Shown here: positions 21,964-62,322 of the stretch, in pieces
How the letters are laid out: each line of letters opens with the position of its first letter
Position numbering within the stretch: the first letter of the stretch is position 1
DNA from: Betaproteobacteria bacterium HGW-Betaproteobacteria-4
GTDB taxonomy: Bacteria > Pseudomonadota > Gammaproteobacteria > Burkholderiales > Rhodocyclaceae
Reading direction: 5' to 3'
Assembly: GCA_002840785.1 (NCBI GenBank)
Contig: PHCH01000008.1
Span: 1 to 64,000 of the forward strand
DNA length: 64,000 nt
Made by a program: the position numbers and the translations under genes
Notes under the pieces: model-generated
The model's database searches: none
Told to the model about the DNA's origin: nothing
Seen by the model: only the letters and a program-made list of their open reading frames with translations

Positions 21964-22005
21964 ATTGCTACGGTCAACGGGCCTTTGGGGCCCGTTTTCA
22001 TTTTT
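21964..22005 (+). terminator. purA terminator joined to interspersed repeat copy R1
   Basis: The 15-nt core ATTGCTACGGTCAAC (21964-21978) is copy R1 of the interspersed repeat. Its last bases run into a perfect hairpin, AACGGGCC / GGCCCGTT (21976-21996), followed by TTCATTTTT. The hairpin terminates purA and may serve the convergent small gene at 22004 as well. Confidence 0.88.
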
Positions 22006-22357
22006 ACTGCGCCGGAACAGCTTGCCAGCCTTCCGGGCAGGCGTTGGTGTACGGATAGTATTGGCCAGACGAACCGCAGTAGTACCAAGTGCCGTAGTCG
22101 GCTCTTGGCATCGGGCGAGGTGGGGCGCTATAGACGGGAGCCGGTGCGTAGCTGTTCTGGGAGGCGACGGCAGCGCCAATGGCCAGGCCGGTGATGGCCA
22201 ACACGGCGGCCGGGCCAACCCAGCCGTGGGTGGCGCGATAACCATGGCCATGTCCATGGCCGTGTCCACCGCGATGGTGGCTCCAGTCAGCCCGGGCGGA
22301 GGTGGTCGCGGTCATGGCCAGTATGGCGGCGATAAACAAGGGGGTGATCTTTTTCAT
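22004..22357 (-). CDS. small secreted Gly/His-rich protein with C-terminal YYPY/CPxGW motif
   Basis: 117 residues with a clear Sec signal peptide (MKKITPLFIAAILAMTATTS, cleaved near ARA-DW). A run of Gly-His pairs follows (HRGGHGHGHGHGYR), then a hydrophobic stretch (WVGPAAVLAITGLAIGAAVA). The C-terminal segment is WYYCGSSGQYYPYTNACPEG followed by WQAVP. This last motif, with its two Cys, recurs at the end of many small beta- and gammaproteobacterial envelope proteins of unknown role. The His-rich repeat could bind metal ions; that is inference. It is convergent with purA and alone in its transcription unit. Confidence 0.85.
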   Translation of the reverse strand: MKKITPLFIAAILAMTATTSARADWSHHRGGHGHGHGHGYRATHGWVGPAAVLAITGLAIGAAVASQNSYAPAPVYSAPPRPMPRADYGTWYYCGSSGQYYPYTNACPEGWQAVPAQ

Positions 22358-22543
22358 GGTTCGGCTCGTAGTTGTCGTTTTGGTAAGCCGAATAACGCGC
22401 CAGGAGAGGGAGCGATGACCGCCGCTATGTACTCAAGTGTTAGGAATTGTTACCGCGGTACGGCGAGGCATGTGCTATGAGACAATGCGTTTGCGATTGG
22501 CAGTCGGCCGTGTTGGCAGATTGTCGAAGCCCGGCGGCAGAAA
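22358..22543. other. intergenic spacer without a recognised gene
   Basis: This 186-bp stretch separates the start of the small secreted-protein gene from the tRNA-Leu terminator. It should contain the promoter of the former. No convincing -35/-10 pair, operator or small gene was seen. Confidence 0.6.
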
Positions 22544-22573
22544 TGAAAAAAGGCCTTGTTTTAACAAGGCCTT
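22544..22573 (-). terminator. terminator of the tRNA-Leu gene
   Basis: On the reverse strand an 11-bp perfect stem (AAGGCCTTGTT with AACAAGGCCTT, 2-nt loop) is followed by seven T residues. It lies 13 bp beyond the CCA end of the tRNA fragment. Confidence 0.9.
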
Positions 22574-22586
22574 CTATCAAAATCGC

Positions 22587-22619
22587 TGGTGCCCAGGAAG
22601 GGACTCGAACCCCCACGGA
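22587..22619 (-). tRNA. tRNA-Leu 3' fragment (T arm, acceptor 3' strand and encoded CCA only)
   Basis: The reverse strand reads GGGGGTTCGAGTCCCTT followed by CCTGGGCACCA: a T arm, acceptor 3' strand and encoded CCA as found in bacterial tRNA-Leu with a 5' GCCCAGG acceptor strand. Everything upstream on that strand (variable arm, anticodon arm, D arm, acceptor 5' strand, about 52 nt) is missing. The sequence passes directly into rnr codons on the other strand. The anticodon is therefore unknown. The intact terminator beyond the 3' end shows that this was a genuine gene. Confidence 0.85.
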
Positions 22620-28536: not shown

Positions 28537-28577
28537 GATTTCAATTTTTGCTCTTTTTTCCGGTTGACCGTAGCAAT
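28537..28577. repeat. interspersed repeat copy R2
   Basis: A 41-bp copy (GATTTCAATTTTTGCTC at the left, core GTTGACCGTAGCAAT at the right end). It lies 46 bp after the stop of the efflux outer-membrane gene. The A-rich orientation (ATTGCTAC first) runs with that gene's transcription. Confidence 0.85.
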
Positions 28578-28622
28578 GCAAGCCTGGCCGGAAACGTCCC
28601 CGCTGGCGCGGGGACGGGCGGG

Positions 28623-30035
28623 TCAGCCAGCCACCCAGCCGCCGCCAAGCGCCTTGAACAGATCGACCGCGGCCCCGAGCCGGCTCTTGCGGCTGGCCAG
28701 GTGGAGCAGTTGGGCGTTGTTCAGCGTACGCTGGGCGTCGAGCACATCCATGTAGCCGGAATAGCCCGACGCGTAGCGCTTTTGCGCCAGATCGAGGGCC
28801 CGTTGCGAGGCGCCGACCTGGGCCGACCAGGCGGCCTCTTCTTCGCTGTATTCGCGCAGGCCGACGATGGCGTCGTTGACCTCCTTGAAGGCGGTCTGCA
28901 CGGCTTTGCGGTAATTGGCCAGGGCTTCTTTTTGCAGGGCGCTGGCCTGATCGACCCGGGCGCCGGTGCGGCCGGCGTCGAAGATCGGCATGGTCAGGCC
29001 GGCGGCGGCCGACCAGATGCCGGCGCCGCCGGTAAACAGGTTGGACAGCGCCATGCTTTCGCTGCCGAACAGGCCGGTCAGGCTGATCGTCGGGTAGTAG
29101 GCGGCCTTGGCGACGCCGATGCGGGCGTTGGCGGCGACCAGTCTTTCCTCGGCCTGGCGGATGTCCGGGCGGGCTTCGAGCAGGGCCGAGGGCAGGCCGG
29201 CCGGCGGGGTGGGCGGCAGCGGCAGCTTGTCGAGGCCGGTGGCGCCGATCTTCAGGCCGGGCTGGCCGCTGAGCAGGCCGATCTGGCTTTCGGACAGGGC
29301 GCGCAGCCGGTGCAACTGGCTCCACTGGGCCTGGGCACCGCTCAGCGCGCTTTCGGCCTGGGCCAGTTCGAGGTCGGAGGCGCTGCCGGCGTTGAGCCGG
29401 GCCTGGACGATCTTGAGCGCTTGCTTGCGCGAGTCGAGCGTCTGCGCCGTGACGTCGAGCTGGCCGTCGAGGCTGCGCAGGTTGAGGTACTCGTTGGCGA
29501 CCTGGCCGACCAGCGCCAGGCGCAGGCTGTCGCGGCCGAAACGGCTGGCCAGGGCTTCGGCCCGGGCGGCTTCGTTGCTACGCCGGATGCGGCCCCAGAG
29601 GTCGAGCTCGTAGCTCAGGGTCGCGGCAACGCGGTTGCTGTCATATTCGGCGCCACCCTGTTTCCGGCCGTTGTAGGTTTCGCCGCTGCTCTTGCTGCGC
29701 CCGCTGCTGGCTTCCAGACCGAGGCGTGGCAAGTAGTCGGCGCCGGCTTCGCGGTTCGCCGCTTCGGCCGCTTCGAGGCGGGCGATGGCGGCTTGCAGGT
29801 CCTGATTGGCGGCGAGCGTCTGGTCGACCAGCGCGTTGAGCTCGGCGTCGCCGAACAGCGTCCACCACGTCGGATTGACCGGCACCTGCGCCGTGGCGAC
29901 GGCCGCAGCCGGTTCAGGCAGCGTCGACGCCGGGCGGAAGTAGTCCGGGCCGATGGCGCAGCCGCTCAGGGCGATTGCTACGGTCAACCCGAAAAAAGGG
30001 CGAAATTTGAAATGTTTCGGGGCGTGGGCGTGCAT
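28623..30035 (-). CDS. RND efflux outer-membrane lipoprotein (OprM/NodT family)
   Basis: Outer-membrane channel of the tripartite efflux pump encoded with the two upstream genes. 470 residues. A lipoprotein signal peptide ends LTVAIALSGC with the lipidated Cys at residue 26, then AIGPDYFRPA, typical of the OprM family. Two OEP repeats follow (DQTLAANQDLQAAIARLEAA; SALLEARPDIRQAEERLVAA). Codons 8-21 of the signal peptide are encoded by repeat copy R3, so the exporting segment FKFRPFFGLTVAIA is repeat-derived. It starts 1 bp after the RND transporter stop, so it is co-transcribed with the pump. Confidence 0.95.
   Translation of the reverse strand: MHAHAPKHFKFRPFFGLTVAIALSGCAIGPDYFRPASTLPEPAAAVATAQVPVNPTWWTLFGDAELNALVDQTLAANQDLQAAIARLEAAEAANREAGADYLPRLGLEASSGRSKSSGETYNGRKQGGAEYDSNRVAATLSYELDLWGRIRRSNEAARAEALASRFGRDSLRLALVGQVANEYLNLRSLDGQLDVTAQTLDSRKQALKIVQARLNAGSASDLELAQAESALSGAQAQWSQLHRLRALSESQIGLLSGQPGLKIGATGLDKLPLPPTPPAGLPSALLEARPDIRQAEERLVAANARIGVAKAAYYPTISLTGLFGSESMALSNLFTGGAGIWSAAAGLTMPIFDAGRTGARVDQASALQKEALANYRKAVQTAFKEVNDAIVGLREYSEEEAAWSAQVGASQRALDLAQKRYASGYSGYMDVLDAQRTLNNAQLLHLASRKSRLGAAVDLFKALGGGWVAG
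29974..30013. repeat. interspersed repeat copy R3, inside the OprM-like signal peptide
   Basis: ATTGCTACGGTCAAC on the plus strand followed by CCGAAAAAAGGGCGAAATTT and GAAAT. The whole copy lies inside the coding sequence of the outer-membrane factor, antisense to it. It encodes FKFRPFFGLTVAIA of the signal peptide. It is inverted relative to R2 at the other end of the same gene. Confidence 0.85.
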
Positions 30036-30036
30036 C

Positions 30037-37141: not shown

Positions 37142-37145
37142 GGCG

Positions 37146-37185
37146 ATTGCTACGGTCAACCCGGAAAAACGGCCGATTTTGAAAT
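37146..37185. repeat. interspersed repeat copy R4, overlapping the 3' end of the CorC-like gene
   Basis: ATTGCTACGGTCAAC followed by CCGGAAAAACGGCCGATTTT and GAAAT on the plus strand. On the reverse strand it supplies the last codons (ISKSAVFPG) and the TGA stop of the CorC-like protein. Confidence 0.85.
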
Positions 37186-38610: not shown

Positions 38611-39735
38611 TCAGACTTTCGTTTTTAGCGCATTTTCCGGGTTGACCGTAGCAAACCCGTGTGCGGCTGCGACGGCGGCGCAGGTGACTTTCCCTTGGTA
38701 GACATTGAGGCCATCGCGCAAATGGCGGTCGTCGAGCAGGGCCTGCCGCCAGCCTTTGTCGGCGATGGCCAGGACGAAGGGCAGGGTGGCGTTGTTCAGG
38801 GCGAAGGTCGAGGTGCGCGGCACGGCGCCGGGCATGTTGGCGACGCAGTAGTGGACGACGTCGTCGACGAGGTAGGTCGGCTCGGCATGGGTAGTCGGAC
38901 GGCTGCTCTCGAAACAGCCGCCCTGATCGATCGAGACATCGACCAGCACCGAGCCGGGGCGGAGCTGGCGGAGCTGTTCGCGGCGCAGCAGGTGCGGCGT
39001 CGTGGCGCCGGGAATCAGCGCGGCGCCGATGATCAGGTCGGCTTCGAGTAGGCTGCTTTCGATCGCTTCGCCAGTGGCCAGCAGCGTCTTGATCCGGTTG
39101 CCGAAATGCGCATCGAGCCAGCGCAGGCGGTCGAGCGAGCGGTTGATGACAGTCACCTCGGCGCCCATGCCGACGGCGATCATGGCCGCATTGGCGCCGA
39201 CCACACCGGCGCCGAGGATGACGACCTTGCCCGGGGTCACGCCCGGCACGCCGCCGAGCAGCACGCCGGAGCCGCCTTTGGGTTTTTCCAGGCAGGCCGC
39301 GCCGACCTGGACCGACATCCGGCCGGCGACTTCGCTCATCGGCGCCAGCAGCGGCAGGCGACCGCCGGCATCGCTGACCGTTTCGTAGGCGATGGCGGTC
39401 ACGCCGGAGGCCATGAGCAGTTCGGTCTGGCGACGGTCCGGCGCCAGGTGCAGGTAGGTGAACAGGGCCTGGTCCGGGCGCAGCAGACGACACTCTTCGG
39501 CTTGCGGTTCCTTGACCTTGACGATCAGGTCGGCCCGGGCAAAGACCTCGGCGGCGCTATCGGCCAGTTCCGCCCCGGCCGCCCGATAGAGTTCGTCGCT
39601 CAGCCCGATGGCCTGGCCGGCGCCCTGCTCGACGATGACCTGGTGACCGTGGGCGACGACTTCGCGGACGCTGCCCGGGGTCAGGCCAACCCGGTATTCG
39701 TGGTTCTTGATTTCCCTGGGAACGCCTATGCGCAT
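38611..39735 (-). CDS. ald: alanine dehydrogenase
   Basis: NAD-dependent interconversion of L-alanine and pyruvate plus ammonia. 374 residues. [20 protein letters not shown] opens the family signature; [10 protein letters not shown] carries the substrate Lys region; [20 protein letters not shown] is the NAD-binding Rossmann motif, followed by [26 protein letters not shown] and [20 protein letters not shown] are active-site segments. The C-terminus after [11 protein letters not shown] differs from relatives: [14 protein letters not shown] is encoded by repeat R5. The change lies beyond the catalytic core, so the enzyme is probably functional. It stands alone between two repeats. Confidence 0.95.
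38614..38655. repeat. interspersed repeat copy R5, encoding the alanine dehydrogenase C-terminus
   Basis: GACTTTCGTTTTTAGCGC, then CATTTTCCGG and core GTTGACCGTAGCAA on the plus strand. On the reverse strand it encodes the final residues [13 protein letters not shown] and the stop of alanine dehydrogenase. Confidence 0.85.
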
Positions 39736-41390: not shown

Positions 41391-42167
41391 TCAGTCGCGC
41401 AGGAGCTGCAGCGCCGGCGAACGATAGTCGCGGCGGAAGAGCACGACCAGCACGACCATGGCGAAGGCGCCCAGGACGGCCGGGTTGAGCAGCCAGCCGG
41501 AGGCGGCGAGGCCGAAGTAGTAGGCGCGGATGCCGCGGTTGAAATCGTCGCCGGCCAGGTTGTTGGCGCCGGCGACGCGCTGGGCATAGGTGTCGATGCC
41601 CGGTTCGCCGGATTTGCCCAGGGGGGCGGCGCCGACGAGGATGGAAAGGAGGTTGAACTGGCGCAGCGACCAGGTGAATTTGAAATAGGCGAAGACAAAC
41701 GAACCGAGCAGCAGCATGAGTTTGACTTCGAGCAGCTCGCGGTTGCCGGCGCCGCCGAAAGGCAGTTCGCTGGTGAAACTGAGCAGCTTGTCGGAAGCGC
41801 CAAGCGCGGCGACGAGGCCGGCGATGATGTAGATCGTCGTGTTGGCGTAGAAGGAAACGCTGGTCACCAGATTGCCGATGAGTGTCGAATCGGTGACCCG
41901 AACGTCGCGTTCGAGCATGCGGTAGGCCCACTGCAGGCGGTAACGCTGGCTGGTCCGGATCAGCCCATTGGCGCCCGACTGGCTGTGTTCGGAATACCAG
42001 GCGTAACCGGCCCAGCTGGCAAAGAAAATGGCCAGGGAAATCCAGTCGACCGCGGAAAGATGGGGCAATGCATGCATCCATACATATTGCCATAGGCCTG
42101 GCGCTTGCGACATCGCCAAAATCCCCTGTTGCGGCGCAGGGCTTACCTGGCCTATGCTGAAAGTCAT
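41391..42167 (-). CDS. DUF599 membrane protein
   Basis: Inner-membrane protein of the DUF599 family: about four hydrophobic segments (DWISLAIFFASWAGYAWYSE, YANTTIYIIAGLVAALGAS, LMLLLGSFVFAYFKFTWSLR, AVLGAFAMVVLVVLF). Family motifs: MLERDVRVTDSTLIGNLVTS and ELPFGGAGNRELLEVKLMLL. The start is unsure; ATGs at 42167, 42113 and 42077 are all in frame, and the last leaves the first helix intact. It is followed after 4 bp by rarD, so the two are likely one operon. Function of the family unknown. Confidence 0.85.
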   Translation of the reverse strand: MTFSIGQVSPAPQQGILAMSQAPGLWQYVWMHALPHLSAVDWISLAIFFASWAGYAWYSEHSQSGANGLIRTSQRYRLQWAYRMLERDVRVTDSTLIGNLVTSVSFYANTTIYIIAGLVAALGASDKLLSFTSELPFGGAGNRELLEVKLMLLLGSFVFAYFKFTWSLRQFNLLSILVGAAPLGKSGEPGIDTYAQRVAGANNLAGDDFNRGIRAYYFGLAASGWLLNPAVLGAFAMVVLVVLFRRDYRSPALQLLRD

Positions 42168-43750: not shown

Positions 43751-43790
43751 GATTTCATTTTTGACCGTTTTTTCCGGTTGACCGTAGAAG
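43751..43790. repeat. interspersed repeat copy R6
   Basis: GATTTCATTTTTGACCG followed by TTTTTTCCGGTTGACCGTAG on the plus strand. The last core bases differ (AAG in place of CAAT). TTGACCG occurs twice within this copy. It sits just after the zinc-ribbon gene. Confidence 0.82.
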
Positions 43791-43953
43791 GTCCGGTGGA
43801 CCGAAAGCCGGTTGATGGCGAACGACTTTTTTGCCCCGCACAGCATCCCCGGCGTCTCGATTTTGAGATGGCGCGTGCGGCTGAACGCTGCTAGTCTTGT
43901 TGAAACAGGTGCCTTGGCGCAAGGTCTGGGGAAAGTCTCGACAAGGAAATAAA

Positions 43954-48017: not shown

Positions 48018-48057
48018 GATTTCAAAATTGGCCAAAATTTCCGGTTGACCGTAGGAG
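48018..48057. repeat. interspersed repeat copy R7
   Basis: GATTTCAAAATTGGCCAAAA followed by TTTCCGGTTGACCGTAGG; the core's last bases are changed. It lies between the DUF1415 gene start and the stop of the DUF4124-like gene, about 54 bp after the latter. Confidence 0.8.
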
Positions 48058-48110
48058 TCAGAAAAATACCGGCAGAAAGCCGGATGGCGGGCGTTACCGA
48101 AACCGATTGC

Positions 48111-50917: not shown

Positions 50918-51799
50918 TCAGGAGGCCAGCGGATCGCCTTCCGCTTCGGCCTGGCGGGCGGCCAGGACCTGCTCCTCGGGGGCGCCGATGCGCTCGAGCA
51001 GATTGCTGTGGCCGATGTGCAGCAAGGCTTCGATCTCCCGATAATCGTCCGGCAGGGCCGGGTCGTTCCAGCCATTCGCCGAGTGCCGGGCGAGATCGAC
51101 CGCGAGCTTGACGTTCCTGACATTGGCCACCTCGGCATCGGCCGGGTTGAGCAGCGAACAGAGCAGTGGCGGCAGCCCCCAGTGGGTGATCAGTTCGACG
51201 GCGATTTCGTCGAGCGGGGCGCCGAAAACCTCCTGCTGGATCTGGCTGCTGCGCCGCCCCGGCTCGCTGGCCAGGCGCTCCTTGGCCCGGATGGCGAGGT
51301 TGGGGGCGAAACACCAGAGAAGGATTTCGACCAGATCGTGGAGCAGCGCCGCCATGGCGATTTCGTCGAAGCTCACGTTCTGGCGCAGCAAGGCCCAGTC
51401 GCGGGCCCATTGCGAAGCGGCGCGGGAACGGGCAATGACCTTGAGCAGGCCGAGCATGGCCTTCGGGTAGCCCTTGAGCTGCTGCTCGAGGATGGGCGGA
51501 TCCTGGATGCTGTCGTAGAAATTCTGCGTGCCGATCATCACCAGCGAGCGTTCGATGGTCGTGATGTCGGCCGACTGTCGGCGCGAGCGGTTGGCCTGCA
51601 TGTACTGAAACAGGCGCAGGGTCATGAGCGGGTCGTGGGCAATGACCGTGGCCAGCTTGCGGGTATTGATCGTGTTCGCCGTTTCGCGCAGTTCGGCGAG
51701 CTGGTGAACCGTGTGGCGGAGGACCGGGACTTCGATGCTCTTGAAGTGCTCAACCCAGGGGGCGACCCCGGGGAAGGGAAAATCGATCATCAAGGTCAT
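50918..51799 (-). CDS. HDOD-domain signalling protein
   Basis: 293 residues, HDOD domain: LRHTVHQLAELRETANTINT, VIAHDPLMTLRLFQYMQANR, TTIERSLVMIGTQNFYDSIQ and EIAMAALLHDLVEILLWCFA. It retains an HD-like dipeptide in LLHDLVE, unlike its paralogue at 25071-25934, where it is SEIGE. The dual-receiver gene is 20 bp upstream and co-directional, so the two probably act in one pathway. Output unknown. Confidence 0.85.
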   Translation of the reverse strand: MTLMIDFPFPGVAPWVEHFKSIEVPVLRHTVHQLAELRETANTINTRKLATVIAHDPLMTLRLFQYMQANRSRRQSADITTIERSLVMIGTQNFYDSIQDPPILEQQLKGYPKAMLGLLKVIARSRAASQWARDWALLRQNVSFDEIAMAALLHDLVEILLWCFAPNLAIRAKERLASEPGRRSSQIQQEVFGAPLDEIAVELITHWGLPPLLCSLLNPADAEVANVRNVKLAVDLARHSANGWNDPALPDDYREIEALLHIGHSNLLERIGAPEEQVLAARQAEAEGDPLAS

Positions 51800-51819
51800 G
51801 GCCGTAAACCTTTCTTCGC

Positions 51820-52659
51820 TCAGGCGTTGAACAGCTGTTTCAGGAATTTCTCGACATACGCCGGGCGCACCGGCTTGACGACGTAACCGCGGGCGCCGAG
51901 TCCGGCCGCTTGCTGGACGATGCTCCGCGAGGTGTCGCCGGTGACCATGACCACGGACGTTTTCGGGCTGGCCGCGACAATTTTGGGGAGCGCCTCGAGG
52001 CCGCCCAGGATGGGCATGTTGACGTCGAGAAAGAGCACGGTCGGCTGGTAGTTGGTAGCGGCACGGATGGCTTCCTCGCCATTCGCCGCCTGGCCGACGA
52101 CCTGCAGGCCGAGTTCGGTGAGCAGGCCCTTGAGCAGCAGGCGGATCGAGCTGTTGTCATCGGCGATGACGGCTGTCCGCTGGTGGCCCGCGGCTTTGCC
52201 GGCTTTCTCGGCGACCGGCAGCGGCGCCGGCGAATTGACGGCCGCTTCCGGCTGGCTTTCCGGCGAGGCCCGGCGACGGGTTTCGCGAACCTGCTGCAAC
52301 TCGTCGATCACCTGTTTCTGACCGAAGGGCTTGCGCAGAAAGCCGGCGGCGCCGGCATCGGCGGCTTGCGTCTCGATGCCCTGGCCTTCCGTCGCCGTGA
52401 TGAACAGCACGTCGATTTCCGGATGGTCCGAATTGATCTCACGCAAGATGTCGAGGCCATCCCGACCTGGCAACTGGTAGTCGAGACAGATAATCTGCGG
52501 CGACAGTGCGCGCACGGCTTCCATGACACCATTGCCATCTTCCAGCGCGCCCACCACCGCGTAGCCCTGGCTGGTCAGCAGGGCGCTCAGCAGGTCTCGC
52601 ATCGAGGCATTGTCATCAACAATCAGAACGCGCATTCGGAATTTCCCGGCAGTTTCCAT
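51820..52659 (-). CDS. response regulator with two receiver domains and no output domain
   Basis: About 279 residues. Receiver 1 (RVLIVDDNASMRDLLSALLT, phospho-Asp in IICLDYQLPGRDGLD, Lys in FLRKPF) and receiver 2 (TAVIADDNSSIRLLLKGLLT, phospho-Asp in LFLDVNMPILGGLE, Lys in YVVKPVRP) are joined by a Pro/Ala-rich linker. Both keep all phosphorylation residues. No DNA-binding or enzymatic domain follows. The start is unsure: ATG at 52659, or 52635 just before RVLIVDD. It lies upstream of the HDOD gene in one unit and may act as a phosphate sink or adaptor for it. Confidence 0.87.
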   Translation of the reverse strand: METAGKFRMRVLIVDDNASMRDLLSALLTSQGYAVVGALEDGNGVMEAVRALSPQIICLDYQLPGRDGLDILREINSDHPEIDVLFITATEGQGIETQAADAGAAGFLRKPFGQKQVIDELQQVRETRRRASPESQPEAAVNSPAPLPVAEKAGKAAGHQRTAVIADDNSSIRLLLKGLLTELGLQVVGQAANGEEAIRAATNYQPTVLFLDVNMPILGGLEALPKIVAASPKTSVVMVTGDTSRSIVQQAAGLGARGYVVKPVRPAYVEKFLKQLFNA

Positions 52660-52743
52660 GAATCCAGACAACGGGTGATCTGGGCAAATCGCTGGCGACG
52701 CTTATGTTAGCCGCGAAAAGGAAGAAATGGACAGAGCCAAATC

Positions 52744-52770
52744 AAAACGCCTCCAGGTCGGAGGCGTTTT
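52744..52770. terminator. bidirectional terminator after cysN
   Basis: AAAACGCCTCC and GGAGGCGTTTT form an 11-bp stem with a 5-nt loop, with A and T tracts on either side. It lies about 40 bp after the cysN stop. Confidence 0.9.
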
Positions 52771-52771
52771 C

Positions 52772-52806
52772 GATTTTGGCCGTTTTTTACGGTTGACCGT
52801 AGCAAT
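52772..52806. repeat. interspersed repeat copy R8
   Basis: GATTTTGGCCGTTTTTTACG joined to core GTTGACCGTAGCAAT on the plus strand. It sits between the cysN stop (3 bp away) and the cysN terminator, with the A-rich orientation co-directional with cysN. Confidence 0.85.
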
Positions 52807-52809
52807 GCC

Positions 52810-54084
52810 TTACAAAATCATCCCGGCGCCGACCGTGTTGTTATTGCTTTCATCGATGATGATGAAAGCGCCGGTTCCCCGGTTTTCCAGGTAGGGGTCG
52901 GCGAACAGCGGCTGGGCCAGCTTGAAGGTGACTTGGGCGATGTCGTTCATGGCCAGCTTTTCGGCCGGCACCTTTTCCAGTGTGTTCACGTCGAGGCGAT
53001 GGTCGATGGCGGCCAGCTTGGCTTTCGAGTCGCGCGTCGTGTGGCGGATCAGGTAGGTGCGGGCGCGGTCCATCGGGGCTTCGGCCATCCAGCAGACGGT
53101 GGCTTCGATCTGCTTGACGGCGGCTGGAACTTCGCTCGACTTGACGATCATGTCGCCGCGCGAGGTGTCGATTTCGTCGGCGAGCAGGATGGTGACGGAT
53201 TGCTCGGTGACCGCTTCGGGAATATTGACGCCGCCGATCTGGATGGCCTTGACCGTCGAGCTCAGGCCGCTGGGCAGCACGGTGACGGCGTCGCCGACTT
53301 TCAGGCTGCCGGCTTCGACGCGGCCCATGAAGCCGCGGTAGTCGTGCAGGTCGGGGTTGGCCGAATCCTGCGGGCGACAGACGTACTGGACCGGAAAACG
53401 GAATTTTTCGGTGTGCTCGGTGTGGGCGCCCGGCGTTTCTTCGAGGATTTCAAGCAGGGTCGGGCCGTCGTACCAGTTCAGGCTGTCACCGCGGTCGACG
53501 ATCATGTCGCCGTTGAGGGCCGAGAGCGGAATGAAGCGGACGTCCTCGATGCCGAGCTTGCCGGCGAATTCGAGGTAGTCGGCCTTGATCTTTTCGTAGG
53601 TGGCCTGCGAGTAATCGACGAGGTCCATCTTGTTGATTGCCACCAGCAGGTGCGGGATGCCGACCAGCGAAGCCAGTTTGGAGTGACGCCGGGTCTGGGT
53701 CAGGATGCCCTTGCGCGCATCGATCAGGATGATGGCGAGGTTGGCGGTGGACGCGGCGGTGACCATGTTGCGGGTGTACTGCTCGTGGCCCGGCGCGTCG
53801 GCGATGATGTACTTGCGGGTGCCGGTGGAGAAGTAGCGGTAGGCGACGTCGATGGTGATGCCCTGTTCGCGTTCGGCTTGCAGGCCGTCGGTGAGCAGCG
53901 AGAGGTCAACCGCGCCCATGCCGCGCTTTTCCGAGGTCTTGGTGATGGCGGAGAGCGTGTCAGCGAGGATGGTCTTGGTGTCGAACAGCAGACGCCCGAT
54001 CAGCGTGCTCTTGCCGTCATCGACGCTGCCGCAGGTCAGGAAGCGCAGCAGGCCGTGGTCTTCGTAGTTTTCGTTGGTGGACAT
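52810..54084 (-). CDS. cysN: sulfate adenylyltransferase GTPase subunit CysN
   Basis: Regulatory GTPase of ATP sulfurylase; GTP hydrolysis drives APS synthesis by CysD. 424 residues. G motifs: LTCGSVDDGKSTLIGRLLFD, the switch DAPGHEQYTRNMVTAAS, and AINKMDLVDY. An EF-Tu-like beta-barrel follows (GFMGRVEAGSLKVGDAVTVL) and the C-terminus is NNNTVGAGMIL. There is no fused CysC kinase. It is second in a cysDN operon, separated from cysD by an 87-bp spacer full of inverted GGATCGAG repeats. Confidence 0.97.
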   Translation of the reverse strand: MSTNENYEDHGLLRFLTCGSVDDGKSTLIGRLLFDTKTILADTLSAITKTSEKRGMGAVDLSLLTDGLQAEREQGITIDVAYRYFSTGTRKYIIADAPGHEQYTRNMVTAASTANLAIILIDARKGILTQTRRHSKLASLVGIPHLLVAINKMDLVDYSQATYEKIKADYLEFAGKLGIEDVRFIPLSALNGDMIVDRGDSLNWYDGPTLLEILEETPGAHTEHTEKFRFPVQYVCRPQDSANPDLHDYRGFMGRVEAGSLKVGDAVTVLPSGLSSTVKAIQIGGVNIPEAVTEQSVTILLADEIDTSRGDMIVKSSEVPAAVKQIEATVCWMAEAPMDRARTYLIRHTTRDSKAKLAAIDHRLDVNTLEKVPAEKLAMNDIAQVTFKLAQPLFADPYLENRGTGAFIIIDESNNNTVGAGMIL

Positions 54085-54097
54085 ATTGTTTTCCCGT

Positions 54098-54172
54098 GAG
54101 GATCGAGGATTCAGGATCGAGGATCGAGTGGGCCGCGGTTTTGCTAACAGCTCGATCCTAATAACTCGATCC
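54098..54172. repeat. GGATCGAG inverted-repeat cluster between cysD and cysN
   Basis: The 87-bp intercistronic spacer contains GGATCGAG three times (54100, 54114, 54121) and its complement CTCGATCC twice (54151, 54165). The last copy touches the cysD stop codon. The transcript can fold into several alternative strong stems. Possible roles are transcript stabilisation or differential expression of cysD and cysN. Confidence 0.75.
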
Positions 54173-55101
54173 TAGAAATATCCTTCTTTCTTGCGTTGTT
54201 CCATGGAGGCGTCGCTGGTCTGGTCGTCCAGACGGGTAGCGCCGCGCTCGGTGATGGTGGTGGTGGCTGTTTCGAAAACGATCTTGCTGACGTCGTCGGC
54301 ATCCGATTCGACCGGCGCCGTGCAGGAAATGTCGCCGACGGTGCGGAAACGGACCTGCAGGTCAATGATTTCTTCACCCGGCTTGGACGGATTGGCGACG
54401 CCGCCACCAACCAGCGGCACGTTGACCGGCACGATGGCGCCCTGGCGCATGGCGACCGGGCGGGTGTGGGCGAAGTAGATCGACGGCAGTTCGAGGCCTT
54501 CGCGCTCGATGTATTGCCAGACGTCCATTTCCGTCCAGTTTGAGATCGGGAAGGCGCGGATGTTCTCACCCTTGTGGCTGCGGGCGTTGTACAGGCTCCA
54601 CAGTTCCGGGCGCTGGTTCTTCGGGTCCCATTGGCCGAATTCGTCACGGAAGCTGAAGATGCGTTCCTTGGCTCTGGCCTTTTCCTCATCGCGACGGGCG
54701 CCGCCGATACAGGCGTCGAAACCGAATTCCTCGATGGCTTCGAGCAGGGTGACCGACTGGTGCTTGTTGCGCGATTCGCCTTCGTGCTTCAGAACGACGG
54801 TGCCGCGCTTCATCGAGTCTTCGACCGAGCGGACGATCAGCCGCTCACCGAGTTCGGCCGCGCGCTTGTCGCGGAAGGCGACGACTTCCTTGTAGTTGTG
54901 GCCGGTGTCGATGTGCATCAGCGGGAAGGGGAACTTGCCCGGGCGGAAGGCCTTTTCGGCCAGGCGCAGCATGCAGATCGAGTCCTTGCCGCCGGAAAAC
55001 AGCAGCACCGGGTTGGAACACTGGCCGGCCACTTCGCGCATGATGTGGATGGCTTCGGCTTCGAGCCAGTCGAGGTGAGAGAGGGTGGAACGTTGGGTCA
55101 T
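54172..55101 (-). CDS. cysD: sulfate adenylyltransferase subunit CysD
   Basis: Catalytic subunit of ATP sulfurylase that makes APS from sulfate and ATP. 309 residues from the ATG at 55101 (MTQRSTLSHLDWLEAEAIHI). The PP-loop motif is VLLFSGGKDSICMLRL. Other family text: HIDTGHNYKEVVAFRDKRAA, FDACIGGARRDEEKARAKER and RAFPISNWTEMDVWQYIERE. Complete. The spacer 55102-55304 lies between its start and the divergent sodC gene and must carry both promoters. Confidence 0.97.
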   Translation of the reverse strand: MTQRSTLSHLDWLEAEAIHIMREVAGQCSNPVLLFSGGKDSICMLRLAEKAFRPGKFPFPLMHIDTGHNYKEVVAFRDKRAAELGERLIVRSVEDSMKRGTVVLKHEGESRNKHQSVTLLEAIEEFGFDACIGGARRDEEKARAKERIFSFRDEFGQWDPKNQRPELWSLYNARSHKGENIRAFPISNWTEMDVWQYIEREGLELPSIYFAHTRPVAMRQGAIVPVNVPLVGGGVANPSKPGEEIIDLQVRFRTVGDISCTAPVESDADDVSKIVFETATTTITERGATRLDDQTSDASMEQRKKEGYF

Positions 55102-55304
55102 TGCTTGGGTAATCCGCGTGGATTGTCGAATGCTGCGCATTGTAGCAAAGCGCTTAATATTCTTTTAAGAACAAATGTACATTGCGTTATTTCAAAAAGA
55201 CATAAAGCGATGCGCGGAGTTCTTGAACCATCTTCACGGATGCTGGTCAGAATATGGATTTGGGATATTCTTCGGCCCGACTCGTCATTTTTCAGGAGCA
55301 GGTC

Positions 55305-55823
55305 ATGCAATTCCGTTTCGCCATCGCCTTGAGCGCCATTTCGCTTGCCTTGCTCGGGGCCTGTTCGACACCGATCGTCGGGGAGTCTGCCAAGGCTGAA
55401 TTGCTGGCCCTTTCGGGGAGTCGGGTGGCCGGCACGGTCAGTTTTTCCGAAACCGACGGTCGCCTGCGCGTCGTCGCCAACGTGACGGGGCTGACGCCGG
55501 GCGAACACGGTTTTCATGTGCATGAGGTGGGCGATTGCAGCGCACCGGACGGCGCCAGCGCGAAGGGGCATTTCAATCCGGGCGGTAATGCGCACGGCCA
55601 TTTCGCCAGCAGCGATCATCACGGTGGCGATCTGCCCAGCCTGATTGCCAATGCGCAGGGCGTCGCGCGATACATCGCCGAATTGCGCGGCCTGAGCTTG
55701 CACGGCCCGACCGGGGTGATCGGGCGCAGCGTCGTGATCCATGCCGATCCGGACGACTACCGCTCGCAGCCGGCTGGCAATTCGGGCCGGCGCGTTGCTT
55801 GCGGGGTGATCGTGGCGCACTGA
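55305..55823 (+). CDS. sodC: Cu/Zn superoxide dismutase, lipoprotein type
   Basis: Periplasmic or outer-membrane superoxide dismutase protecting against extracytoplasmic superoxide. 172 residues from the ATG at 55305, which follows CAGGAGCAGG. The signal peptide ends SLALLGACSTP, a lipobox with the Cys at residue 20. Metal ligands are visible: HGFHVHEVGDC (His-x-His), GHFNPGGNAHG, the zinc loop with SDHHGGDLP, and RSVVIHADPDDY. Two Cys (DC and ACGVIV) can form the conserved disulfide. Catalytic Arg in SGRRVACG. Complete. Confidence 0.96.
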   Translation: MQFRFAIALSAISLALLGACSTPIVGESAKAELLALSGSRVAGTVSFSETDGRLRVVANVTGLTPGEHGFHVHEVGDCSAPDGASAKGHFNPGGNAHGHFASSDHHGGDLPSLIANAQGVARYIAELRGLSLHGPTGVIGRSVVIHADPDDYRSQPAGNSGRRVACGVIVAH

Positions 55824-55839
55824 ATTCCGGCGCCGCGCG

Positions 55840-55880
55840 GATTTCATTTTTGCCTGTTTTTCCCGGTTGACCGTAGCAAT
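55840..55880. repeat. interspersed repeat copy R9
   Basis: GATTTCATTTTTGCCTG followed by TTTTTCCCGGTTGACCGTAG and CAAT on the plus strand. It lies in the 68-bp spacer between the convergent sodC and fumC genes, 12 bp from the fumC stop. Confidence 0.85.
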
Positions 55881-55891
55881 CGGTTTTGTCG

Positions 55892-57227
55892 CTACGGCGC
55901 CGGGCCGATCATCTCGCCCGGCACGACCCAGCGGTCGTAGTCTTCGAGCGAGACATGGCCGAGCGCCAGCGCCGCCTGCCTGAGCGTGGTGCCGTCGTGG
56001 CTGGCCAGTTTGGCGATTTCGGCCGCCTTGTCGTAGCCGATGTGCGGGGTCAGGGCGGTGACCAGCATGAGCGAGCGTTCCATGAGTTCGGCGATGCGTT
56101 TGCGGTGGGCGGTGATGCCGCGCACGCAATGGTGTTCGAAACTGGCCATGCCGTCGCCGAGCAGGCGCACGCTGTGCAGGAAGTTGTGGGCGATGACCGG
56201 CTTGTAGACATTGAGTTCGAAATTGCCGGAAGCGCCGGCGATGGTTATCGCCACGTCGTTGCCCATGACCTGGCAGCAAAGCATGGTGAGCGCTTCGCAC
56301 TGGGTCGGGTTGACCTTGCCGGGCATGATCGAACTGCCCGGCTCGTTTTCCGGGATGCCGATTTCGCCAAGCCCGGAGCGCGGCCCGGAAGCCAGCCAGC
56401 GGATATCGTTGGCGATTTTCATGAGGGCCACGGCCAGCGTCTTGAGGGCGCCGTGGGCGGCGACCAGGCCGTCGTGGGCGGCCAGTGCAGCGAACTTGTT
56501 GGCGGCGCTGGTGAACGGAATGCCGTTGCGCTCGGCCAGTTCAGCCGCGACACGGGCACCGAATTCGGGATGGGTGTTGAGCCCGGTGCCAACGGCGGTG
56601 CCGCCGACAGCGAGCGGGGTGAGCGCCGGCAGGCTGGCGGCGACGAGGCTTTCGGCGTGCTGCAACTGGGCGACGTAGCCGGAGAATTCCTGGCCGAGGG
56701 AGAGCGGCGTCGCGTCCTGCAGATGGGTGCGGCCGATCTTGATGATGTCGGCGAACTCGGCGGATTTGCTTGCCAGCGTCGCGGTCAGTCGGCGGAGGGC
56801 GGGCAATAAGCGGCGCTCGATGCCGATGGTGGCGGCGACGTGCATGGCGGTCGGGAAAATGTCGTTCGACGACTGGCCGAGGTTGACGTGATCGTTGGGA
56901 TGAACGAGGCGGGCGTGGCCGCGCTGGCCGCCCATCAACTCCGAGGCGCGGTTGGCCAGCACCTCGTTCATGTTCATGTTGTTCATTGGCAGCGAGAATG
57001 ATGGCTGCCGCGAACGGGGCCGGAAGCAGGCCGAGTTCGCGGTTGACCTTGGCGGCGCTCGCCTTGACCTGGGCCAGCGCGTGGATCAGTTCTTCCGGCA
57101 TGCGTTCGCCAGAAATGGCGAAATGCGCCAGCGAACGCTGGGTCTGGGCGCCCCACAGGCGGTCGGCGGCAACCTCGATGTCGCCGAAGGAATCCCTTTC
57201 CGGTCGGGTCTTGCCGATCGTCGTCAT
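55892..57227 (-). pseudogene. fumC: class II fumarase gene with a frameshifting internal deletion
   Basis: Fumarase C converts fumarate to malate in the TCA cycle. The native ATG at 57227 (MTTIGKTRPERDSFGDIEVA, with GAGGAG upstream) reads well to AAIILAAN at about position 56989. The sequence then resumes in another frame at [18 protein letters not shown]. About 22-25 codons are missing, which in relatives encode the segment ending in the substrate-binding signature GSGTQSNMN. The rest is intact, including [20 protein letters not shown] and the signature [16 protein letters not shown]. As written no full-length product is possible. Both parts are clean, so an assembly gap is the leading explanation. 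Confidence 0.9.
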
Positions 57228-57460: not shown

Positions 57461-59947
57461 GTGAAGAGCCGTTCGCTACATCTCGTGGCTGCCCTGCTGG
57501 TGTTTTGCGGCCTGGCACTGGCTGCCTACTTTGCCGAGAAAATAAACCGCGAGCGATACGCTTCGGCCGAGCGCGCCGAGGTTCTGCATGGGCTGACCGT
57601 CGTGCGCGATGCGCTCGAAGGCAACCTCAACAGTGATATTCAGTTGGTGCGCGGCCTGATCGGCGTCATCGCCCTGGCTCCGGACATCGGCCAGACGCGT
57701 TTCGAGACGGCCGTCAAACCCCTGCTTTCCGGGCGTACTCAGCTGCGCAACATCGCTGCTGCGCCGGATATGGTGATCCGCTGGATGCATCCGCTGAAAG
57801 GCAACGAAAAAGCAATCGGGCTCGATTTTCGGACGACGCCGGATCAGGTCGCGGCCGCCGAGCAGGCCAGGGTGTCGCGCCAGATTGTCCTGGCCGGGCC
57901 GCTCAACCTTGTCCAGGGCGGCATCGGCCTGGTCGCCCGCTTGCCGGTCTATTTGCCCGACAGCAAAGGGGACGAGTATTTCTGGGGGCTGGTCAGCGCG
58001 GTGATCGACGTCGACAAACTGTTTGCCAACAGCGGGCTGTCCCAGGCGGACCTCCCGGTCGATATCGCCATTCGTGGCAAGGATGGCAAGGGCGCCGACG
58101 GCGAGGTGTTTTTTGGCCGCCCCGGGGTGTTCGCCGAAAATCCCGTTCTGGCAACGATCTACCTGCCGCAGGGTACCTGGCAGGTTGCCGCGACGCCACG
58201 CGGCGGCTGGAAAGCGGAACCCGGCAACCTGGCGTGGCTGCGCCTCGGGTTTGTCCTGATCGCGCTCATGGTCACCGGCGCCCTCGCCCTGCTCTGGCGT
58301 GCCTTCGAACGCGCTTCACGCGCGACGGAGAGGGCGGAGGCGGCGCGCCGCCGTCTGTCGGCCAGCCTTGAAAACACGCCCAATGTGGCTGTTCAGTGGT
58401 TTGATGCCCGGGGGCGGGTCATTTACTGGAACCCGGCATCCGAAAAACTCTACGGATGGCGCTCGGAAGAGGCGCTGGGCCTGACTCTCGGGCAACTGGT
58501 TTTCAAGGGCGACGAGGGCGCGCAGTGCCTGAAGGAACTGGCCGAGGTGGCATCCAGCGGCTACTCGCTGGCGCCCACCGAGTATCTGGTGCGAACCCGC
58601 AGCGGCGAGCCGCGCTGGGTGGAGTCGACCGCTTTCGTCATCCCTGGCGAGGGTGATTCGCCGCAGATCCTGGTCTGCATGGATGTCGATATTTCGGCCC
58701 GTGTCCGCAACGAAGGCGAGCTGCGCCAGTACCGCCAGCATCTCGAAGAACTGGTCGCCCGCCGCACCGCCGAGCTGGCTGTGGCCAAGGAGGCGGCGGA
58801 GGCGGCCAACGTGGCGAAGAGTGCTTTCCTGGCCAACATGTCGCACGAGATCCGGACGCCGCTCAACGCCATCACCGGCATGGCCCACCTGATCCGGCGC
58901 AGCGGCCTGGCACCCGAGCAGATGGTGCGCCTCGACCGGCTGGAGCTGGCCGGCGAACACCTGCTGGAAATCATCAATGCCGTTCTCGACCTCTCCAAGA
59001 TCGAGGCCGGCAAATTCACGCTCGAGGAAATGCCGCTCAAGGTCGGCTGCCTTCTCGGCAATGTTGCCTCGATCATGGGCGATCGTGCCCAGGCCAAGCA
59101 TCTTGTCCTCCACACCGAGCCGGTGCCCGCCTTGCCGCCGCTGGTCGGCGATGCGACCCGGCTGCAGCAGGCCTTGCTCAACTACGTGACCAACGCCATC
59201 AAATTCACCGAGAGCGGCGCCATCACCCTGCGCGCCACCGTGGTCGAGGCCGATGCCGACAGCGTCGCGCTGCGTTTCGAGGTCGAGGACACCGGGATCG
59301 GCATTGCCGAGGACGATCTCGGGCGCTTGTTCAGTGCCTTCGAGCAGGCCGACAATTCGACGACGCGCAAATATGGCGGCACCGGCCTGGGCCTGGCCAT
59401 CACGCGCAAACTGGCCAAGCTCATGGGGGGCGATGCCGGGGCGACCAGCCAGGCCGGGCAGGGCAGCACTTTCTGGCTGACCGCCCGCCTGCGGAAGGTG
59501 GTCGAACGCCCCGGTCCGGCCGCTGCCGGGTTCGACGAAAACGCCGCCGAAGCCTTGCGGCGCAACTATCCGGCCAGCCGCATCCTGCTCGTCGAGGACG
59601 AGCCGATCAACCAGGAAATTGCCCTCGCCATGCTTGACGACGTCGGGCTGGTCGTCGATGTCGCCGACAACGGCATGGTAGCCCTCGACAAGTTCGGCCG
59701 CGAAAGCTACGACCTGATCCTGATGGACATGCAGATGCCGCAGATGGACGGCCTGACCGCAACGCGACAGATTCGCGCCCTGCCGCAGGGCGGCACCATC
59801 CCCATCCTGGCCATGACGGCCAACGCCTTCGCCGAGGACAAGGCACGCTGCCTTGAAGTCGGCATGAACGACTTCATCGCCAAGCCGGTCGATCCGGGCC
59901 GGCTCTACGCGATGGTGTTGAAATGGTTGAGCCGGGCGGAAGGCTAG
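57461..59947 (+). CDS. hybrid sensor histidine kinase (CHASE-like sensor, PAS, HisKA, HATPase, REC)
   Basis: 828 residues from the GTG at 57461 ([20 protein letters not shown]). Membrane segment 1 is followed by a CHASE-like extracytoplasmic domain (about 40-260; [32 protein letters not shown]), membrane segment 2 ([20 protein letters not shown]) and a PAS domain ([20 protein letters not shown]). HisKA has [16 protein letters not shown]; HATPase has [20 protein letters not shown]; the C-terminal receiver has [20 protein letters not shown] and [13 protein letters not shown]. No Hpt domain. The kinase half is a close paralogue of the one at 45077-47359. No cognate partner nearby. Confidence 0.92.
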
Positions 59948-60057
59948 GCACAGCGCTGTCGGGGCTAAACCCCCTGGAAGGGGATGGAGTGGCTATTCAT
60001 GCGATTGCCCTGAACGGCAGTCCATGTCGGGCGCGGTAGCCAGTTTATTATGACGGC

Positions 60058-62322
60058 ATGCGCCTGAACATTCTCGCCTTCGCCGCCGGCATCCTCGGTC
60101 TGCAGATGCAGCCGGAACTGCCCGGCTGGGCGCTGTGGGCGATTGCCGGCGGATTTCTCGTGCTGCCGCGTGTGCGCTGGTCGGGCTGGCCGGTTCGCGG
60201 GCTGGCGCTGTTGGGTTGCCTGGCGCTCGGCGTCGCCTGGGGCGGCTGGCGGGCCGAAAGCCGGCTGGCCGATCAGCTCGGCGCCGACTGGGAAGGGCGC
60301 GATGTCGAGGTGGTCGGCGTCGTCGCCGGTTTGCCGCAGGATTTCAGCAACGGGATACGTTTCGAATTTGACGTAAATTCCCGGTTGACCGTGGGATCGG
60401 TCGTTCCCGGGCGGATCATGCTCTCGTGGTACCACAGCCGGCGCGACGAGGCGCAGCTGGAGCGGCGGACGGTGCGCCCGGGAGAGCGCTGGCGTTTTAC
60501 GGTGCGCCTGAAGCGGCCGCACGGCAACGCCAATCCGGGGGGCTTCGATTACGAAGCCTGGCTGCTCGAACGCAATATCCGGGCAAGCGGCTACATCCGT
60601 CCGAACCCGCCGCAACGGCTCAACGACATGGTCTGGCAGCCGGCTTACGCCTTCGAACGGATGCGCCACGCCATCCGCGACTCGTTTGCCCGGCTATTGC
60701 CGGAAGCCGACTATCCGTGGGGCGGGGTGCTCGTGGCGCTGGTCATCGGCGACCAGAAGGCGATTCAGGGCGATCTGTGGACGACCTTTAACCGAACCGG
60801 AACGACGCACCTCATGTCGATTTCCGGCCTGCATGTGACGATGGTTGCCGCCCTTTTCGGCTGGCTCGTCAATGTTGGCTGGCGGCGTGCGCCGGCCCTG
60901 GCCCTGCGCCTGCCGGCGCAAAAGGCCGGGCTGCTCGCGGCAGGTCTGGCCGCTTTCGCCTATGCCTTGCTGGCCGGCTTTGCCGTGCCCGCCCAGCGCA
61001 CGCTGTACATGTTGCTGGTTGCCGCTGCGGCGATGCTCTCGGGGCGTATCGTGGCGCCGAGCCGGATCCTTTGCCTGGCGCTGCTTGTCGTTCTCCTTGT
61101 CGATCCGTGGGCGGTGCTGGCGGCCGGCTTCTGGCTGTCCTTCGGTGCCGTCGGCGCGCTGCTTTACATCAGCTCGGCGACCGTCGGCGAGGCCGCCGGC
61201 TGGCCGGCGAAATTCCGCGCCTGGGGCGTCGTGCAGTGGGCCGCGACGCTCGCCTCGCTACCTGTCCTGCTCCTCGTCTTCCAGCAATTCTCGCTGGTCT
61301 CGCCGCTGGCCAATGCGCTGGCCATTCCGGTCATCAGCTTCATCGTCACGCCGCTCGCCCTGGACTGGCTCATGGTTTTCCTGACCTGGTGTGCCGGATG
61401 GCCGGTCTGGCTGGCGCCGGCGCCACCCCTTTGGGCTGTCCTGGCGGCCGGCCTCGGCGCGGCCATCTGCCTCTTGCCGCGCGGCTTGCCCGGGCGCTGG
61501 CTGGGGGCGATCCTGTTCGTGCCGACGCTGTTCTGGCCGGTCGCCAAGCCGCCCGAGGGCGAGGCCTGGATCAGCGTGCTCGATGTCGGGCAGGGGCTGG
61601 CCAGCGTCATTCGGACGCGCGAACACACCCTGATCTACGACCCCGGCCCGCTCTACAGCGCCGAATCTGATGCCGGGCAGCGCGTTGTCGTCCCTTATCT
61701 GCGCGGGCAGGGGATCGGTCACGTCGACAAGCTCATGGTGACTCACCGCGACGCCGATCATGCCGGCGGAACGGCATCGGTGCTGGCGGCGCTGACGGTC
61801 GATGAGGTCGTCTCGTCGGTCGTCGGGATCGACGGGCAACCGTGCACCGCTGGCCAGCGCTGGGTTTGGGATGGCGTCGTTTTCGAGGTGCTGCATCCGC
61901 TGGCCGAGGCTTATGCCGGGGCCAGCAAGTCGAATCATCTATCCTGCGTGTTGCGCGTCGAAGCGGGTGGCCATCGCCTGCTGTTTACGTCGGATATCGA
62001 AGCACCCGACGAGGCAGCCTTGCTCCGGCGCTATCCGGACGGGCTGGCGGCCGATGTCCTGCTCGTTCCTCACCATGGCTCGAAGACGTCGTCGACGCCG
62101 GCTTTCCTGCAGGCAGTCGGGGCGCGCCGGGCGGTCATCCCGGTCGGCTATCGCAACCGTTTCGGGCACCCCAAGGCCGAAGTGCTGGCCCGCTACGAAG
62201 CCATGGGTGCGGAAATCTGGCGAACCGATCGCGATGGCGCCGTGCGCATCAGCCTTGCGGCGGGCGGTATCGCCTTGGCCGGCTGGCGGCATGAACATCG
62301 CCGCTACTGGCATGGCCGGTGA
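60058..62322 (+). CDS. comEC: DNA internalisation/competence protein ComEC/Rec2
   Basis: Inner-membrane channel for single-stranded DNA during natural transformation. 754 residues. DUF4131 N-terminal region with membrane segments (MRLNILAFAAGILGLQ, LALLGCLALGVAWGGW), an OB-like segment, the competence domain with many helices (GTTHLMSISGLHVTMVAALF, FAVPAQRTLYMLLVAAAAML), and a C-terminal metallo-beta-lactamase-like domain (MVTHRDADHAGGTASVL, LLVPHHGSKTSSTPAFL). Residues 102-113 are encoded by a diverged copy of the interspersed repeat. With pilF it indicates that type IV pilus-linked DNA uptake is possible. Confidence 0.93.
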   Translation: MRLNILAFAAGILGLQMQPELPGWALWAIAGGFLVLPRVRWSGWPVRGLALLGCLALGVAWGGWRAESRLADQLGADWEGRDVEVVGVVAGLPQDFSNGIRFEFDVNSRLTVGSVVPGRIMLSWYHSRRDEAQLERRTVRPGERWRFTVRLKRPHGNANPGGFDYEAWLLERNIRASGYIRPNPPQRLNDMVWQPAYAFERMRHAIRDSFARLLPEADYPWGGVLVALVIGDQKAIQGDLWTTFNRTGTTHLMSISGLHVTMVAALFGWLVNVGWRRAPALALRLPAQKAGLLAAGLAAFAYALLAGFAVPAQRTLYMLLVAAAAMLSGRIVAPSRILCLALLVVLLVDPWAVLAAGFWLSFGAVGALLYISSATVGEAAGWPAKFRAWGVVQWAATLASLPVLLLVFQQFSLVSPLANALAIPVISFIVTPLALDWLMVFLTWCAGWPVWLAPAPPLWAVLAAGLGAAICLLPRGLPGRWLGAILFVPTLFWPVAKPPEGEAWISVLDVGQGLASVIRTREHTLIYDPGPLYSAESDAGQRVVVPYLRGQGIGHVDKLMVTHRDADHAGGTASVLAALTVDEVVSSVVGIDGQPCTAGQRWVWDGVVFEVLHPLAEAYAGASKSNHLSCVLRVEAGGHRLLFTSDIEAPDEAALLRRYPDGLAADVLLVPHHGSKTSSTPAFLQAVGARRAVIPVGYRNRFGHPKAEVLARYEAMGAEIWRTDRDGAVRISLAAGGIALAGWRHEHRRYWHGR
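60361..60393. repeat. diverged interspersed repeat copy R10 inside comEC
   Basis: TTCGAATTTGACGTAAATTC followed by CCGGTTGACCGTG. Thirteen consecutive bases (CCCGGTTGACCGT) match copy R9 exactly and the left part aligns with R7. It lies in frame inside comEC at about codons 102-112, in the variable N-terminal region. Less certain than the other copies. Confidence 0.55.

Follow-up and report, generated by a model that had tools for sequence, protein, structure and literature searches.

The window analysed here is a stretch of 64,000 nucleotides, positions 1 to 64,000 of contig PHCH01000008.1 from Betaproteobacteria bacterium HGW-Betaproteobacteria-4 (genome G000 in our numbering; other G numbers denote genomes compared with it). 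It carries a dispersed repeat of about 40 bp, found at the ends of genes such as purA, cysN and fumC and inside others, which is probably a signal for DNA uptake. The comEC/rec2 gene, coding for the DNA-import channel of transformation, is present as one open frame of 754 amino acids on the + strand (60058..62322; TIGR00361, 363.4 bits; neighbours in frame). It contains a diverged copy of the repeat in antisense orientation (60359..60399, - strand, 25.8 bits). An earlier reading of this DNA by its letters alone, the sequence-only reading, had listed ten copies of the repeat, and all ten were recovered over the whole window with a weight matrix made from 76 genomic copies. This matrix was built from copies of the CTACGG type and favours that type. 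The reversed window gave no matches of 14 bits or more with the same matrix.

The first of the ten copies (21963..22003, +, 23.3 bits) is located 11 bp past the purA stop and is followed by a GGGCC/GGCCC hairpin and a T run. It had been described as core only; the core is indeed present, and the terminator-like hairpin stands where the A/T tracts would be expected. This core is also found in G336 and G310 and is altered in G305 and G281. A full intergenic copy is located downstream of the OEP efflux gene (28538..28578, -, 67.0 bits), with orthologous copies in G336, G310, G335 and G305 and a partial one in G281. The copy at 29973..30013 (+, 67.1 bits), thought to follow a stop codon, is likewise full but lies within the efflux gene, at its 5' end, in a part resembling a signal peptide, and runs antisense. 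The same hydrophobic LTVA[MI] near the N-terminus, with the look of a signal peptide, is found at the antisense coding copies of loci L008, L022 and L030. Another full copy, at a convergent gene end, overlaps the 3' end of a CNNM/CorC-like gene (37145..37185, +, 61.9 bits), and the next is at the 3' end of an AlaDH/PNT-like gene (38616..38656, -, 50.3 bits). The copy at 43752..43792 (-, 46.0 bits) has full tracts and the variant core CTACGGTCAACC, with an orthologue in G310. Full copies are also located downstream of a DUF4124 gene (48019..48059, -, 53.8 bits, AAATTT tracts), 3 bp past the cysN stop and ahead of a terminator-like hairpin (52767..52807, -, 64.8 bits), and 11 bp past the fumC stop (55841..55881, -, 66.4 bits). 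Four further matches, ranging from 14.7 to 34.4 bits, were found beyond these: weak copies at 598..638 (-, 20.8 bits) and 63088..63128 (+, 24.7 bits), a diverged copy at 6595..6635 (+, 34.4 bits) with an orthologue in G305, and a weak match at 10747..10787 (14.7 bits). Three of the four are within the first 21.9 kb, which had been regarded as empty; this is correct for good copies only.

The full unit was derived from the 76 of 162 genomic copies that were fetched with enough flank, the window included. It is about 40 bp long and consists of ATTGCTACGGTCAACCGG, a pair of A/T tracts spaced by one turn of the helix, and GAAAT. In the linear layout, ATTGCTACGGTCAAC leads into CGG; the A/T tracts occupy approximately +19 to +23 and +30 to +34, with GGCC between them, and GAAAT closes the unit. 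The information extends from the core to about +40 and then fades. The centres of the tracts are at about +21 and +32, approximately 11 bp from each other. The tracts read AAAAAA, AAATTT or TTTTT, and such an interchange of A and T is expected where the shape of the DNA matters.

The repeat is too regular to be a product of chance, as had been supposed: with up to three mismatches allowed, the 15-mer core has 19 matches in the window against 1.04 expected, and none of 100 shuffles reached 19. The whole genome, 4,072,373 bases in 174 contigs, contains 162 copies of the exact 15-mer (71 and 91 on the two strands) and none of the reversed pattern, while the looser core CGGTYGACCGYRGSA has 413 copies against one for its reversed control. 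This is the strong genomic over-representation characteristic of uptake signals. There are 232 one-mismatch forms of the 15-mer, or about 5 per one-mismatch neighbour. The perfect form therefore outnumbers the mean neighbour about 31-fold, yet is less frequent than all neighbours taken together.

Shorter cores were counted in the window and in contiguous orthologous stretches of six relatives. For the 12-mer ACGGTCAACCGG, the numbers of perfect and one-mismatch forms are 9 and 3 in G305, 8 and 4 in G335, 8 and 5 in G347, 7 and 4 in G310, 6 and 6 in G336, 5 and 5 in the window, and 1 and 5 in G281. Perfect forms thus equal or exceed one-mismatch forms in six of the seven genomes, G281 being the exception, and the reversed controls gave no perfect matches. 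For the 10-mer CGGTCAACCG, one-mismatch forms exceed perfect ones in all seven (17 against 6 in the window); judging by the reversed control, with 2 perfect and 11 one-mismatch forms, much of this is background.

The distribution of the repeat is largely confined to one genus. Of 297 family genomes, 8 have the exact core of the window's own species; 7 of these, the window's genome included, belong to the genus. R1, a sequence model based on the 76 copies, has matches in 66 of the 76 genus genomes at E<=0.001. Scoring was limited to no more than about 84 candidates per genome in the genus and 21 in the family, under stricter filters, so that high counts are floors and weak matches may have been lost. 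The looser core occurs 411 times in G336, 348 in G305, 334 in G310, 287 in both G315 and G335, and 283 in G347; it is absent from six genomes, and the reversed control gives 0 to 3 per genome. By the R1 model or the looser core, 42 of the 76 genus genomes have at least 20 copies. Beyond the genus, 9 of 285 family genomes show one or two R1 matches. The two matches in G079, which belongs to another genus, are 2.7 kb apart (C150:38771-38800 and 41448-41485) and are possibly DNA transferred from the motif-rich genus.

The sequence of the repeat differs between clades, so that dialects can be recognized. Among the matrix matches in contiguous stretches, the CTACGG form accounts for 10 of 14 in the window and 10 of 11 in G336, while the CCACGG form accounts for 9 of 13 in G305, 7 of 12 in G347, 6 of 13 in G335 and 4 of 12 in G310, which is mixed. 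G302 has the core TGCTGCGGTCGACCG with weaker tracts (19 copies). The core of G147, TGCCACGGTCGACCG, is partly palindromic and flanked on either side by A/T tracts (21 copies); the palindromic 20-bp form TGCCACGGTCGACCGTGGCA is found there, for example, after cysN at locus L132 and at L395. In G331, the outer part is variable among five copies picked by the T tract and GGTYGACC. Two copies in G338 face each other across a gap of 6 nt (L271). The site 3' of cysN, where the window has GTTGACCGTAGCAAT, illustrates these differences. A copy is present in 10 of 22 aligned relatives, two of them diverged, with variants such as GTTGACCGTGGGAAT, GTCGACCGTAGCAAG and GTTGACCGCAGGAGT. The other 12 have no motif; the spacer is mostly shorter and a few retain the remnant GTCGACCG.

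The individual copies were compared with their counterparts in relatives. Of the 37 orthologue pairs that were made, two were dropped, namely 37145 against G335 and against G305, where about 1.3 kb of extra sequence misaligned the mapping. The remaining 35 pairs are not independent, and three window copies have no mapped orthologue; the limit for mapping was 20 bits, and the match at 10747 is below it. No gap within the motif was found in 29 of the 35 pairs. The identity of the motif is higher than that of the 60-bp flanks in 30 pairs and lower in 5. For the copy at 48019, identity in G335, G305 and G347 is 90-93% over the motif but only 50-53% over the flanks; G281 has no motif there. The copies in relatives thus occupy the same sites and differ by substitution. 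One result that the sequence-only reading would have taken as refuting its view was that all copies are conserved in place as coding or terminator sequence in distant relatives. Conservation in place does exist within the genus, and it is that of a maintained dispersed DNA motif, not of coding or terminator sequence.

The origin of the coding copies can be assessed from protein alignments, an approach by which Redfield et al. showed that insertion is not the source of the uptake signal sequences (USS) of Pasteurellaceae (PMC1626085, section 7). Of the 32 proteins, six were compared with PDB homologues, and one of the six had no homologue. The 14-residue peptide coded by the motif has no gaps in SerC, GltX and DNA ligase, a gap of one residue in a flavoprotein and of 2-4 residues in RibD. 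A 40-bp insertion is excluded for these five coding copies, and all five with PDB homologues over the motif fit an origin by point mutation.

The host has the machinery for uptake as far as comEC, comEA and prepilin-type proteins are concerned. ComEA was above the cut-off in 11 of 12 genomes tested, including that of the window; G281 has a weaker match only. The window's genome contains 19 prepilin-type matches and one ComP_DUS pilin, and such a pilin was found in 70 of the 76 genus genomes. The ComP_DUS family was considered as receptor, but its presence does not follow the motif. Moreover, the ComP_DUS pilins of G000 and G336 are only 35% identical, whereas these genomes share one dialect and are 93-94% identical over window 51500-56500. 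This divergence of the pilin despite the common dialect counts against ComP_DUS as the specificity factor. Around this pilin (G000:C106:65800-77500, L320, and G336:C7:183000-190500, L329), the pilin-like frames nearby show weak matches or none, which suggests that the pilin region may have been replaced by transfer.

The comEC gene itself is split in 10 of the 76 genus genomes, its pieces lying some 2 to 64 kb from each other on a single contig. These are G335 (C1:2720418-2763735), G322 (C33:109617-143311), G297, G342, G201, G333, G359, G358, G303 and G337. The breaks cluster at model positions of approximately 145-166 and 590, and a large serine recombinase is located at one end of the stretch between the pieces in G322. 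In this genus, comEC looks like a preferred integration target of mobile elements. G335 and G322 also have motif copies in their comEC regions. At 18 bits or more, there is no copy in the approximately 77 kb between the comEC pieces of these two genomes, against 17 in about 69 kb of their fetched flanks. Two other features of the window were observed. About 94 bp at 54064-54174 are missing in G336 between conserved blocks, and the matches of many relatives break there. A 297-bp repeat, 72% identical between 46145-46441 and 58733-59029, forms part of a run of matches 12.6 kb apart, a run that looks like two paralogous sensor-kinase genes.

Taken together, these features allow us to propose that the repeat is most likely a DNA-uptake signal of a third family, convergent with the USS of Pasteurellaceae and the DNA uptake sequences (DUS) of Neisseriaceae. 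It would act as a short double-stranded tag of "self" on outside DNA, to be read by a surface-exposed component of the type IV pilus/competence system. A surface receptor, probably a minor pilin, would bind the CGGTYGACCG core, and the A/T tracts may aid the bending of the DNA into the secretin. Tagged fragments would be taken up and recombined more often than others. Such a bias could create and keep hundreds of copies close to the consensus, and the consensus would drift along with the specificity of the receptor. The copies are found on both strands and in coding as well as non-coding DNA, as is usual for uptake signals.

Several observations weigh against this proposal. Motif-poor genomes, too, have competence genes and pilins, and the machinery genes are therefore non-discriminating; a heuristic scan of three motif-rich against three motif-poor genomes found no pilin confined to the former. 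The motif load is alike in genomes with intact (56) and split (10) comEC, with p=0.26 and 0.99, 10 unclear genomes being left out. The excess of perfect cores typical of USS is not seen for the 15-mer or the 10-mer; given the mixed counts for 15-mer, 12-mer and 10-mer, this hallmark is only partly seen. The dialects are not clean, as G310 shows, and the palindromic dialect of G147 suits a dimeric intracellular protein better than the known USS or DUS. At the cysN site, the relatives with no motif and shorter spacers make insertion or deletion possible. Copies inside genes show no preferred orientation (15 against 17), while known uptake sequences prefer one orientation within reading frames, according to PMC2346458. 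Finally, the density of about 0.1 per kb (413 copies) is well under that implied by the numbers of cores per genome in PMC7811141, 1,465 for USS or 1,892 for DUS.

The main alternative, less likely but a serious one, is that an abundant cytoplasmic DNA-binding protein with a role in the nucleoid, segregation or repair uses the repeat as its binding site. Such a protein would probably sit as a dimer on the near-palindrome CGGTYGACCG, the A-tracts aiding the bending of the DNA and the dialects reflecting co-evolution with the protein. The near-dyad core fits this description, and part of the G147 copies are fully palindromic with A/T tracts on both sides. Conservation in place above the flanks would be expected too, and the absence of the motif from the two comEC inserts would also follow. 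The palindromic dialect, together with the fact that no receptor has been identified, keeps this explanation alive. However, no strand bias was observed in six genomes: the conserved half-motif occurs 158/158 times on the two strands of the one-contig genome G305 and 127/126, 123/112, 51/66, 3/4 and 146/142 times in five others. In G305, the 100 of 158 + strand copies that were listed (63%) cover 61.7% of the chromosome, with a coefficient of variation of the spacing of 0.96. There is therefore no replichore polarity in G305; this lack of skew rules against a polarised motif of replication or segregation. In addition, several shifts of the consensus within one genus may be easier to reach by uptake-biased recombination than by many independent changes of sites.

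Far less probable is an element acting at the RNA level at 3' ends, such as a terminator, a stability element or the target of a small RNA in 3' untranslated regions. The sequence-only reading had pointed in this direction, as most copies seemed to follow, and to be co-directional with, an upstream stop codon. By our own, crude gene calls, 44 of the 76 copies are intergenic: 16 between convergent genes, 15 in tandem with the upstream gene read with the motif, 9 in tandem with it read against the motif, and 4 between divergent genes. The described arrangement holds for many intergenic copies, 31 of the 44 following a gene read in the same way, and some are just ahead of a terminator-like hairpin (cysN, purA). 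It is partly an effect of convergent genes. However, 32 of the 76 copies (42%) fall within genes, 15 of them sense and 17 antisense, and the tandem preference of 15 against 9 is not significant (p=0.31); the repeat is common between genes but is for these reasons not a 3'-end signal. The folding of the RNA of three consensus forms is no better than that of shuffles (z-scores near 0), no Rfam match at the gathering threshold was found in window 20-64 kb, and A and T interchange in the tracts. The suggestion of a regulatory element at 3' ends is disfavoured by the intragenic copies in both orientations and the lack of an RNA fold.

A role as operator or promoter for a global regulator is slightly more doubtful still. 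The sequence TTGACC resembles a -35 box, and one weak promoter-like match (9/12) begins at the core at cysN; only 4 of the 76 copies are between divergent genes, however, while 32 are in genes. The mobile repeat that the sequence-only reading had also entertained, whether a miniature inverted-repeat transposable element (MITE), a repetitive extragenic palindrome (REP) or another non-autonomous element, is the least credible of all: it would account for the high copy number, the strong consensus, the confinement to the genus and a cysN copy missing in 12 of 22 relatives, mostly with a shorter spacer, the last of which makes it marginally more probable, but clean empty sites with target duplications were not seen in the relatives, copies at the same sites differ by substitutions, five coding copies have no matching insertion, the A/T tracts vary freely, and the information fades at about +40.

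If the repeat is an uptake signal, this third case with an unrelated core would be one of convergent evolution and would offer an independent set of dialects for finding the receptor. According to a paper of 2025 (PMC12616744), the two families of Pasteurellaceae and Neisseriaceae are the only known discriminators of this kind. Among the literature matches listed, no title describes the motif, and the 15-mers have no occurrences in 10 listed papers out of 13. An uptake signal would also point to active natural transformation in a group of bacteria which, judging from the lineage, are environmental. We consider it somewhat probable that these Rhodocyclaceae-like betaproteobacteria have an independent uptake signal with several dialects, one of them palindromic, splitting species into groups of preferential DNA exchange, and a comEC repeatedly broken by mobile elements. 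The label Rhodocyclaceae-like is inferred; among the named relatives of CysN the best were a Rhodocyclaceae bacterium (80%), Denitromonas (79%) and Azoarcus (77%). One-contig genomes exist in the genus for both states, G305 and G335 carrying the motif and G297 and G312 having no copy or a single one, so that the question is directly testable.

The repeat should finally be compared with known systems. REP and the related bacterial interspersed mosaic elements (BIME) are dispersed and often located between convergent genes. The present repeat is similar in both respects but has no stable hairpin, is inside genes in 32 of 76 copies and has dialect variants at the same places in relatives. The DUS are not known to have A/T tracts such as those described above. 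Like the DUS of Neisseriaceae, the repeat has a high copy number, lineage dialects and both intragenic and intergenic copies (PMC3630211). DUS inverted pairs near gene ends are described in the same source; here, one inverted pair was seen, in G338 (L271). DUS are 10-12-mers whose inner core contains CTG (PMC3630211, PMC12616744), whereas the consensus of the window's genome has no CTG on either strand, and the CTG of the G302 dialect stands in another context. The receptor of the DUS, ComP, is known, while none is assigned to the present repeat.

The repeat is also similar to the USS of Pasteurellaceae. In both, the core is accompanied on one side by two A/T tracts about one turn apart (PMC1626085); those of the Hin-type USS are described there as centred 12 apart. 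Both are present in many copies, inside genes as well as between them and on either strand, and share an origin by substitution and clade-specific types (PMC1626085, PMC7811141). However, the core CGGTYGACCG of the window's own dialect is unrelated to the USS cores AAGTGCGGT/ACAAGCGGT. The A/T layout fits that of the USS, with its inner GCGG and segments about 12 bp apart, but the core has no GCGG; the GCGGT of the G302 dialect is taken as a coincidence. The repeat is also sparser than the USS, has a palindromic dialect and resides in a betaproteobacterium-like host. Most of the features that can be read from its sequence match those of known uptake signals; it departs from them in its unrelated core, its palindromic dialect, its lower density and an excess of perfect cores that is only partial. 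By this evidence, the repeat resembles the USS in its behaviour, and by sequence it is neither a Pasteurellacean USS nor a Neisserial DUS.

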